64,000 nt of DNA from Dyadobacter sp. UC 10 (GTDB lineage Bacteria > Bacteroidota > Bacteroidia > Cytophagales > Spirosomataceae). The position numbers and the translations under genes are program-made. The stretch covers positions 6,196,501-6,260,500 of the forward strand of contig NZ_VSRN01000001.1 of NCBI RefSeq assembly GCF_008369915.1. Reading direction: 5' to 3'. This document shows, one piece after another, positions 4,656-21,099 of this stretch (positions are counted from its first letter, which is position 1; the number at the start of each line of letters is the position of its first letter). Below the pieces are notes generated by a model. The model did no database searches. It was not told the DNA's origin and was given only the letters and a program-made list of their open reading frames with translations.

Positions 4656-4702
4656 CAATGAATGAATGACCGAATGATTGAATTAGTGCATGAATCAATT
4701 GG
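4656..4702. repeat. Simple GAATGA/GAATTAGTG-type repeat
   Basis: The intergenic gap between the adenosyltransferase and the BtuF-like gene holds degenerate copies of GAATGA, GACCGAATGA and GAATTAGTG. The same words build the long arms of the two B12 riboswitches near 20.3 and 20.8 kb. There is no riboswitch core here, so only the repeat family is shared. It could form weak secondary structure in the polycistronic transcript. Confidence 0.6.
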
Positions 4703-16209: not shown

Positions 16210-16223
16210 TTTGTTGGTGGTTT

Positions 16224-16455
16224 TTGGCTTTTAGCTGTTAGCTATTAGCCGTTAGCTATTAGCTTTTGGCGGTTGGCCGTTTGCTGCTATTTGTTAGCTC
16301 TAATCTCTCTTTATTATTCTTATTTTACCACTAAATATCAGGCAGTTCAATCCTTATCACTAAAAACTAATGGCTAACAGGTAATAGCTAACAGCCAAAA
16401 GCTAACAGCCAAAAGCTAACAGCTAATAGCTAATAGCCAAAGGCCAACAGCCCCC
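16224..16455. repeat. Long inverted repeat of AGCTAATAGC/AGCTAACAGCC units
   Basis: The left arm (about 16224-16302) carries TTAGCTGTTAGCTATTAGCC-like units. The right arm (about 16369-16455) carries complementary GCTAACAGCCAAAAGCTAAC-like units, separated by a roughly 65-base AT-rich stretch. The RNA would fold as a very long hairpin between cobB and cobN. The right arm runs into the end of cobB and supplies its last codons and TAG stop (GGC TAT TAG). Confidence 0.8.
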
Positions 16456-17873: not shown

Positions 17874-20066
17874 CTATATGTTATACTTTAAACTGACCAA
17901 AAAATTCCGAGTTGCGCCCGGTGAAAACTGGTTGGCAAAAATGGCATTGGCGAAATATTTTTCATTGAATAAATTATTGACGTTCAAGCGCAAGGCGGTG
18001 CGACCAACCCGGTAGCCAACTGCCGCGTCAACCACCGTATAAGCCGGAAGTGCATAAATATTGGCACTATTCGTGAATGTTTCATCCATATAATTAACGC
18101 CCGCACCAACGCTGAATCCTTTCAGGATGCTCTGCTGAACTTCATAATTAAGCCACACATTAACCATATTTTCAGGTGCGAAAGCCGTTTTGTTTCCCGC
18201 CGCCGGATTCACTTCTGAGCCGTCGTGCGGAAGGTATTTTGCCTTTGCCAGGGTGTAGCCTGCATTGATGTCCAGTCCGGGCGATGGATTTCCGTGAATT
18301 TCAACTTCCAAACCTTTTGATTCCGCCGATCCGATCGGTTTCAAAACCCCACCCGGCAAGCTTTCCAGCTGGTTATTTTTACGCATGTAGTAAATTGACA
18401 GGTTACCCGACCATTTGCGGGAAATTTCCAGCCGGCTGCCGATTTCAGCCTGATAACCATCCTCGGGCTCAAAGGTTTCACCATTCGCTGCTACCCGGCG
18501 CGAAGGCTTGAAGTAAGTAGCATAAGACCCGTAAACCGACAAAGTTTCAGTCGGCTGATAAACCAGACCAAGGCGGTAAGTCAATGCAGATTTCGCTACT
18601 TTCGACTCGGGACCTTCCGCGGTTACTTCCCTGTCGCCATTGACCTGATCACTGAAATAGGTGCCTCTGAAAATATCATAACGCAACCCCGCTAACGCTT
18701 TTAATTTCTCCGAAATCTTTAACCAATCCTGCACATAAATCCCGTGCACGTTTTCCATCGTAGCCCGGTAATTGGTAGTCACGAAATCGACATAACCCTG
18801 ATTCGCGACCGGATCCTTAACCGGAATGGTAGCAAACTGACCCGGCCCGAAAACATCCCCGTTATAAGTCCGGCGATCCATCAAGCTCAGTGAATAACCG
18901 GCAAGCAGCTTATGCTCAATGCCTCCGGTGTTGAAATCAAACGTCAGTTCGAGCTGGTTTTGCAGCGGTTTGGTGAGGTGATTAAAGTAAAAGGGATAGG
19001 ACCTGGTGATCGAATCCAGCGTAGGGTTCAAAGTCAGCTCCTCCGCAGAAAAGTAGTTGATATTGTCATCGTAATAGGATAGCTGGTTCGAGAGTTTCAG
19101 TTTCGAATTGATCTGGCGGACGTATTTGAGCTGAAAATCATACCGCGTGTTTTTCAAAAAATCCTGCGGATCGTTGTAGCGTGTATTTACGTTCAAACCC
19201 GGTACTACTTTGCTTCCTTCCAGCATCGGAATGCCCGTGTCGGTATCGTAAATGTCCTTATTGGCGCCTATCGTCAGGTAAAACAGGTCTTTTTCAGTTG
19301 GAGTGTATTCCAATGCCAGATACCCATTGTTTGTGTTCGAGCCGGAATGCCGGTAACCTTCCGTGTCGGACATCCCAAAATCGACCCGGTAACGCAGCTT
19401 GTCATTGATCGCCCCGCCCGCTCCGGCACGCATCCTTTTGGTGTTAAAACTTCCGTAGGTAGTAGAAAAATCAGCTTTGAACCCGGCAGTTGGCTTTTTC
19501 CTGACGATATTAATGATCCCTCCCAATGCAGAATGCCCGAACAGTGCCGAAGCAGGGCCTTTGAGAATTTCAATGCTTTCGACATTGGCCAGGTTCGTGC
19601 TCGGCGCGCTCGTGGAAATGTTGTGGCGCTCGTCGCGGACACCGTCCGTGAGCAATACAAAGTTGGAAAACCCGCGGATCGTGAAATGCTGAAATCCGCC
19701 GTAAGTGTTGTTGGCTCGCACACCGGTGGTGTTTTTCATCGCTTCACCGAGGTCATCCGCGCCGCGCTGCTCAATGGTTTTGACGCTGACACCCGAAGTG
19801 GAAACGGGCATATCCCGTATCGGAACGTCGATTTTGTTGATGGCAGAAAATGACTTCCGCCGTTCTTCCGAAATGATAACTTCGGACAAATCGCGTGCTT
19901 CGCCGTCCTTGTCCGGATCAGGCTTCACAGTGTTTTGCTGCGCATAACCAGCCGAAGTGAGCACGATAAGTCCGCCGAATACCGCAGTGCAGACGCCGAT
20001 TTTTAATTGAATGGTCCGGTTGCTCCTGCCGTCAGTTCGCGGACCGCAGTTTTGTAGCATTTGCAT
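17874..20066 (-). CDS. TonB-dependent receptor, siderophore-receptor type, led by a B12 riboswitch
   Basis: 730 residues with an N-terminal signal peptide ending near GYAQQ (about residue 45). A plug domain follows with IPIRDMPVSTSGVSVKTI-type text, TTGVRANNTYGG, FTIRGFSNFVLLTDGVRDE and ESIEILKGPASALFGHSALG. A 22-strand barrel ends in LKYNI. The plug and barrel resemble the ferric-siderophore receptor subgroup (FhuA-like), yet the gene lies about 170 bases downstream of a cobalamin riboswitch and leads the cob genes. The likely substrate is therefore a corrinoid or a cobalt chelate rather than iron, but this is inference. Two ATG codons (20066 and 20060) are possible starts; the first is used. 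Confidence 0.92.
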   Translation of the reverse strand: MQMLQNCGPRTDGRSNRTIQLKIGVCTAVFGGLIVLTSAGYAQQNTVKPDPDKDGEARDLSEVIISEERRKSFSAINKIDVPIRDMPVSTSGVSVKTIEQRGADDLGEAMKNTTGVRANNTYGGFQHFTIRGFSNFVLLTDGVRDERHNISTSAPSTNLANVESIEILKGPASALFGHSALGGIINIVRKKPTAGFKADFSTTYGSFNTKRMRAGAGGAINDKLRYRVDFGMSDTEGYRHSGSNTNNGYLALEYTPTEKDLFYLTIGANKDIYDTDTGIPMLEGSKVVPGLNVNTRYNDPQDFLKNTRYDFQLKYVRQINSKLKLSNQLSYYDDNINYFSAEELTLNPTLDSITRSYPFYFNHLTKPLQNQLELTFDFNTGGIEHKLLAGYSLSLMDRRTYNGDVFGPGQFATIPVKDPVANQGYVDFVTTNYRATMENVHGIYVQDWLKISEKLKALAGLRYDIFRGTYFSDQVNGDREVTAEGPESKVAKSALTYRLGLVYQPTETLSVYGSYATYFKPSRRVAANGETFEPEDGYQAEIGSRLEISRKWSGNLSIYYMRKNNQLESLPGGVLKPIGSAESKGLEVEIHGNPSPGLDINAGYTLAKAKYLPHDGSEVNPAAGNKTAFAPENMVNVWLNYEVQQSILKGFSVGAGVNYMDETFTNSANIYALPAYTVVDAAVGYRVGRTALRLNVNNLFNEKYFANAIFANQFSPGATRNFLVSLKYNI

Positions 20067-20237
20067 ACTTTTAACCTGATTTTAGGTGAGTTAAAAGCTC
20101 TTGCCAGAATTTTTAATGCAAGCGAAAGAAGACGAAGAAGGAAAGACCGGGCGAACTACACCCGAAAATCACGGCTCAAAAACCGGAAAAATCCAGACCA
20201 GACGAAGCTTCATTTCGCGGAAGCATTGTCAACAAAA

Positions 20238-20515
20238 AAAGGCAGGTCTCCTGACTTGTAACATTCACATCGTCCTTCCCGGGGCTTTTAATTTTGAATG
20301 ATTGAGTGACTGAATGATTGACTGATAAAAAAATATTCGGTCATCGCAGTGGCGACCCGGTCTATAATTCAGTCATTCAGTCATTCGCTAATTCAATCAT
20401 TAATTCCCCAGTGGACATCATTCTGATGTAAACTCTTTGCGTTACTTACAGTTGCGCGACAGCTCGTGATTTGCACACGATTCCCTATTAATTCACGTGG
20501 TTAGTAAAACCTTTT
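20238..20515 (-). promoter_or_regulatory. Cobalamin riboswitch with repeat-expanded arm (minus strand)
   Basis: On the minus strand the order of conserved elements is AATAGGGAATCGTGTGCAAATC (20500-20480 area), GAGCTGTCGCGCAACTGTAA, CCACTG at 20414-20409, GGGAAGG at 20280-20274 and the B12-box-like GTCAGGAGACCTGCC at 20255-20241. This is the cobalamin riboswitch signature. The arm between CCACTG and GGGAAGG is 128 nt and consists largely of AATGATTGA, GAATGACTGA and their complements, which pair into a long stem with an apical GGTC/GACC hairpin. It precedes the siderophore-type receptor and possibly the whole cob operon. About 170 nt separate it from the start codon. Confidence 0.9.
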
Positions 20516-20553
20516 CCTGTTGGAAAATAAAGTAAAGAACTGTTTCAAGGCTG

Positions 20554-20561: not shown

Positions 20562-20609
20562 GAGGAATAAGTTAATTTTCATGTCAGTGTAAAACAAAAA
20601 ACTCCATAT

Positions 20610-20952
20610 TTGCGGCTCAATTGGTTCACGCGCTTTGCGTGATGAAAAGGGAATCCGGTGAAAATCCGGAGCAGTACCCGCTGCTGTAAGTTCATATTTT
20701 GTGTTGCAACATTTTGTGCCACTGGGAAGTAATTTTGAGTTAGTGATTAGTGAGTTAGTGAATTAATGAGTTAGTGAATTAGTGAATGACCGAATTAGTG
20801 AATGTTTTTGTATTAGACTTATAAAACCCTCACTCACTCACTCACTCACTCACTCACTCACTCACTCACTCACTCACTAATTCACTCACTCACTAATTCA
20901 ATCAATCCCCCGGGAAGGCGTTGCAACTGGGCGAGCCAGAAGACCTGCCAGT
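20610..20952 (+). promoter_or_regulatory. Cobalamin riboswitch with repeat-expanded arm (plus strand)
   Basis: Conserved elements in order are the hairpin CACGCGCTTTGCGTG, GGGAATCCGGTGAAAATCC at 20649, GCAGTACCCGCTGCTGTAA, CCACTG at 20719-20724, GGGAAGG at 20912-20918 and GAGCCAGAAGACCTGCC ending near 20949. The arm between CCACTG and GGGAAGG is about 187 nt, mostly GAGTTAGTG/GAATTAGTG units facing a (CACT)n run and CACTAATTC units. For example, GAATTAGTG pairs exactly with CACTAATTC. It precedes the cobalt-type transporter and BtuB-like receptor genes. A CATATTTG near-match to the -7 box lies at 20605-20612. Confidence 0.92.
20829..20878 (+). repeat. Tetranucleotide tract (CACT)12 inside the riboswitch arm
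   Basis: An uninterrupted run of 12.5 CACT units forms much of the 3' side of the expanded riboswitch arm. Tracts of this length are prone to slipped-strand length change, so the arm may differ between isolates. Confidence 0.9.
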
Positions 20953-21099
20953 CGATATATTATCCGGATTGCTTTCGGGAAGAAAGGCGATAGGACGATG
21001 GCGGTGGCTTCTTTTGGGCTGCTGCCCTGCGCCTGCATTGTTCCCAAAGTTTTTCGAGATAAGCGGTTTTTTACTTATCCAAGATTAATCGAAAAACGA

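Follow-up and report, generated by a model that had tools for sequence, protein, structure and literature searches.

Two divergently oriented cobalamin riboswitches of Dyadobacter sp. UC 10 carry long hairpin arms at the same loop of their fold, and both arms belong to a repeat family that is dispersed over the genome. Our analysis indicates that a dispersed hairpin repeat resembling an intervening sequence (IVS) has probably been captured repeatedly and independently at this tolerated apical riboswitch loop within Dyadobacter. This gives a concrete source for unexplained variable riboswitch insertions and offers, among close relatives, a naturally occurring set of sites with and without the insert. 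Moreover, it connects short-unit hairpins to the intervening-sequence protein, for which the loci described below are offered for probing its role. A partial literature search returned no account of either this repeat family or PF05635 genes flanked by short-unit arms; as far as the literature was searched, both the identification of the insert and the association of PF05635 genes with short-unit hairpins are new.

Two cobalamin riboswitches with hairpin arms at one loop

The window, the whole 64-kb stretch of DNA that was analysed, contains two cobalamin riboswitches (Table 1), both of which are full-length and score well against an RF00174 gathering score of 31.5. TonB-dependent receptors flank the pair on both sides, the plus-strand receptor also being supported by Pfam, and a CobB/CobQ-type amidotransferase (Pfam) lies beyond the minus-strand receptor. 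Both riboswitches thus show the context of RF00174, upstream of cobalamin-related or uptake genes.

Table 1. Positions of the riboswitches, their arms and an adjacent gene in the window.
Feature	Position	Strand	Details
TonB-dependent receptor ORF	17874-20066	-	Pfam TonB barrel and plug
Cobalamin riboswitch	20224..20529	-	RF00174, 95 bits, full model 1-189; 5' of TonB-dependent receptor
NTGA hairpin arm, 128 nt	20281..20408	-	In place of the apical loop of the CCACTG/GGGAAGG helix
Nested 22-nt GC hairpin GACCGGGTCGCCACTGCGATGA	20341..20362	-	Differs from the genomic repeat GACCGGGTCGCCGGTGCGATGA by 2 mismatches
Second, divergent cobalamin riboswitch	20605..20966	+	RF00174, 94 bits; 5' of a 243-aa ORF and TonB-dependent receptor
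NTGA/NTTA hairpin arm, 187 nt	20725..20911	+	Equivalent fold position

A sequence-only reading had placed an insertion between CCACTG and GGGAAGG of the minus-strand riboswitch and a second one at the same point of its plus-strand neighbour. The length and coordinates of the former are exact on the sequence, and the equivalence of the two sites agrees with Rfam, since the nucleotides left unmodelled by RF00174 (118 in the minus-strand and 178 in the plus-strand riboswitch) fall at one shared loop. The minus arm is predicted to fold into a hairpin of -38.3 kcal/mol (z -3.9) and the plus arm into a longer one of -67 kcal/mol (z -7.4). Both arms are composed of (NTGA)n tetramers, the TGA arm preceding the TCA arm, and NTTA is a frequent unit variant within the plus arm. 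The longest period-4 TGA run reaches 8 units in the minus arm and 12 in the plus arm, compared to a maximum of 3 units in twenty copies of the 64-kb window simulated with an order-1 Markov model. Because both arms are built from NTGA and run TGA-first, they represent one repeat family and not two types; the earlier reading was correct that the exact words differ between the arms but not that these are different repeats. The apical GGTC/GACC element that it described in the minus arm is real and corresponds to the nested hairpin of Table 1.

NTGA repeats are dispersed over the genome

Comparing the arm repeats with the intergenic repeats of the same genome, as the sequence-only reading had suggested, revealed a dispersed NTGA family with arrays mainly in non-coding DNA. 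(NTGA)6 with at most 1 mismatch gave 242 overlapping matches in the genome versus 26 for the reversed control, and the 22-nt repeat GACCGGGTCGCCGGTGCGATGA is present in 17 copies genome-wide versus 0 for its reversed control. All 17 copies sit at NTGA arrays, and through its nested 22-mer the minus arm is linked to these arrays. In a sample of 864 kb (40 evenly spaced 20-kb stretches plus the window), 32 of 36 arrays with a period of 4, 7 or 8, overlapping periods being counted separately, were located in non-coding DNA, which makes up 12% of the sample. Further short-unit families of the genome include TTRGCTN heptamers and GGAGGAAG arrays. Among 21 NTGA clusters, which were partly picked by pattern search and are therefore no census, 7 were two-armed, including the riboswitch pair, and all of these run TGA-first, whereas the other 14 were one-armed at the threshold applied. 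As most of the genomic arrays are one-armed, what moves may be something other than the hairpin. The window itself also contains a short NTGA array with one arm, TGAATGAATGACCGAATGATTGAATTAGT (4659-4687), in an intergenic position beside a gene end.

Long arms are ordinary in Dyadobacter

Among the cobalamin riboswitches of the genus, which were retrieved in score order so that the proportions are no census, at least 61 carry a long arm of 35-238 nt at this loop and at least 31 a short loop of 7-21 nt. The long arms form hairpins, and those of the NTGA type, a class assigned by reading the sequences, account for 57 of the 61. Counted by loci, NTGA arms occur in about 30 of 48 Dyadobacter species, and every long arm with a callable polarity is TGA-first. 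The long arms outside the NTGA type are L171- and L176+, both from one species (G020), and L143- and L197+, which differ. In G020, both riboswitches carry at the same site arms of another unit, GAATTAAGAGTGAAGAATTAAGAATGA. The longest arm, the 238 nt of L182 (G007:C3:70196-70607), seemingly consists of two NTGA hairpins, either consecutive or nested.

A strict pattern of two TCATTCA words beside GGGAAGGC matched 11 stretches among 84,980 species, 10 of them in Dyadobacter. A slightly shorter version was present in 14 of 48 Dyadobacter genomes and in none of 174 genomes from 35 other genera of the family. Since even this shorter version is strict and misses this genome's own arms, its figures are underestimates. 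The earlier reading had named ordinary arm lengths in this riboswitch class as a finding that would speak against its hotspot; long arms at this site are indeed ordinary within Dyadobacter, but the strict NTGA pattern was not seen in the other genera of the family. RNase P RNA showed no NTGA run in the 30 Dyadobacter genomes whose sequence was read, and its length is about 394-416 nt in all 48 genomes of the genus; therefore, not every structured RNA hosts an NTGA arm.

PF05635 genes lie between short-unit inverted arms

At G000:C1:1081396-1081876 in this genome, NTGA arms bracket a gene of the family PF05635 (23S rRNA intervening sequence protein), and most of the 20 relatives compared also have an NTGA-armed PF05635 gene at this chromosomal spot. 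More generally, the 5' and 3' flanks of 26 of 33 Dyadobacter PF05635 loci, which correspond to 8 chromosomal spots, are complementary to a degree above that of 99% of random genome positions. Random positions served as control in place of flanks exchanged between loci, which were unsuitable because many of these loci share a spot, some with the gene inverted. In the wider order, 16 of 29 PF05635 loci exceeded the same complementarity score, as did 0 controls. The flanking arms of the Dyadobacter loci are mostly built from short units other than NTGA, which explains why a detector restricted to NTGA found arms at only a few of them. At several loci (L065, L073, L068, L081 and others) both the orientation of the PF05635 gene and the arm unit differ between species at one spot. 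Around an NTGA-armed PF05635 gene, several NTGA hairpins follow each other in some species (L102, L107, L112 and L115), apparently as a cluster of elements.

None of the riboswitch arms contains a PF05635 gene, and even the longest is too short for one. The riboswitch arms may be gene-free relatives of the PF05635-bearing elements. On a broader and more doubtful view, the Cytophagales might harbour a class of IVS-like mobile hairpins with short-unit arms, whose gene-bearing forms encode PF05635 proteins and whose gene-free copies enter loops of structured RNAs, including riboswitches, where they may be cut by RNase III.

History of the arms and alternative explanations

A tree of 83 riboswitch cores, constructed with the arm removed, counts changes of state and is blind to gain versus loss. 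The distribution of long and short states requires 20 changes on this tree, a number that is perhaps slightly high because L013 and L148 were wrongly scored as long (both are excluded from the long-arm counts), and at least 7 changes are forced by starred branches. Most of these changes were probably gains. Near relatives contrast in their loops, with 7 nt in L017- and L025+ versus 89 nt in L021- and 128 nt in L001-. Deep starred branches (2.12 and 1.12 changes per column) separate the clades to which the cores of the two window riboswitches belong; each clade includes short-loop members, and a simple duplication is therefore ruled out. Together with the 20 changes and the dispersal of the repeat over the genome, this supports the earlier proposal of a hotspot for a repeat family. 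Descent of both arms from a single riboswitch by duplication and inversion would agree with cores that are of one class, adjacent and divergent, but in some pairs one loop is short and the other long (L025, L017), and the core tree opposes such a descent unless every short loop is a secondary loss; we consider it highly improbable.

A more serious, though still unlikely, alternative is that no insertion took place: slipped-strand expansion of short words would have lengthened the loop in situ, and template switching between the arms would have kept these complementary. The low complexity of the units, the variation in copy number and length and the different unit types of different species at identical PF05635 spots would fit such growth, as would the fact that the comparison of filled and empty sites yielded no clear target-site duplication, the empty loops being too variable to judge. 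However, the NTGA word, its polarity and the AAT...GAATGA ends recur on many branches, which is unexpected from unrelated loops, and the minus arm holds a 22-nt, non-tetrameric element of the genomic family. Selection of the arm as a functional riboswitch element, such as an RNase III site or a means of controlling the speed of folding, appears improbable to us. The NTGA long arms of the riboswitches are two-armed hairpins in contrast to the 14 one-armed genomic clusters, and their paired columns are well conserved among orthologs; yet the two-armed form is also expected if the aptamer folds only with self-complementary inserts. Furthermore, the same riboswitch occurs without the arm in near relatives, and neither arm length nor words are conserved. 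Covariation within orthologous arms is weak, two sets yielding 1 compensatory pair each, and we therefore make no claim of selection on the pairing.

Repeated capture of a dispersed hairpin, the explanation that we favour, most likely proceeded as follows. The source would be an intergenic short-unit hairpin, here (NTGA)n with TGA first and TCA second and ends near AATTTTGAATGA ... TCATTCAAAATT, which would be copied to new sites, perhaps aided by IVP-type proteins. Its landing site would be the apical loop of a peripheral helix, the one closed by CCACTG/GGGAAGG, where a self-complementary insert would add a long hairpin to the outer end of the helix and leave the ligand-binding core intact. 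Copies in riboswitches would survive only if they were self-complementary, so that the existing helix is extended and the aptamer core remains foldable. With its self-complementarity and the core left intact, the arm would therefore be tolerated and probably be near neutral, and it probably has no regulatory role.

Relation to known systems

Intervening sequences of rRNA take the place of small helix loops (PMC4990558). In Coxiella, the element stands in place of a helix loop, is bounded by terminal inverted repeats, contains heptameric repeats and is a substrate of RNase III cleavage; the role of the intervening-sequence protein is still described as unknown (PMC4990558). The Dyadobacter arms resemble the 23S rRNA intervening sequences in that a small riboswitch loop is replaced by an extended stem-loop, and the PF05635 genes of the genus likewise lie between short-unit inverted arms, as the Coxiella element has its heptameric repeats. 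Unlike the rRNA elements, the Dyadobacter arm resides in a riboswitch and carries no S23p/IVP gene. Certain fixed sites of riboswitches are known to accept stem-loop insertions, which are long and non-conserved, and the P8-P10-P11 domain of AdoCbl aptamers has been described as optional (PMC2258182). The arms studied here share this character of long, non-conserved stem-loops at tolerated sites, but differ in that the insert belongs to a repeat family found across the genome, which has reached the site repeatedly. As for a target-site duplication of the kind that marks mobile palindromes of the MITE/REP type, filled and empty sites in Dyadobacter showed no clear one, with the caveat on the empty loops given above.

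The units also resemble STRR-type repeats in being dispersed, degenerate, short and mostly intergenic. STRR-type repeats consist of heptamer units and have a cyanobacterial host, and their dispersed short degenerate tandem units reportedly also occur within a structured RNA gene. In contrast, the Dyadobacter repeats belong to another phylum, are based on an NTGA tetramer and are hosted by a riboswitch, with the RNase P RNA lacking an insert. A heptamer hairpin is present in our window as well: at 16210-16455, between a CobN-like gene and the CobB/CobQ-type gene, TTRGCTN units form a first arm at about 16211-16286 and a second at about 16375-16455, in the same two-arm layout as in the NTGA hairpins.
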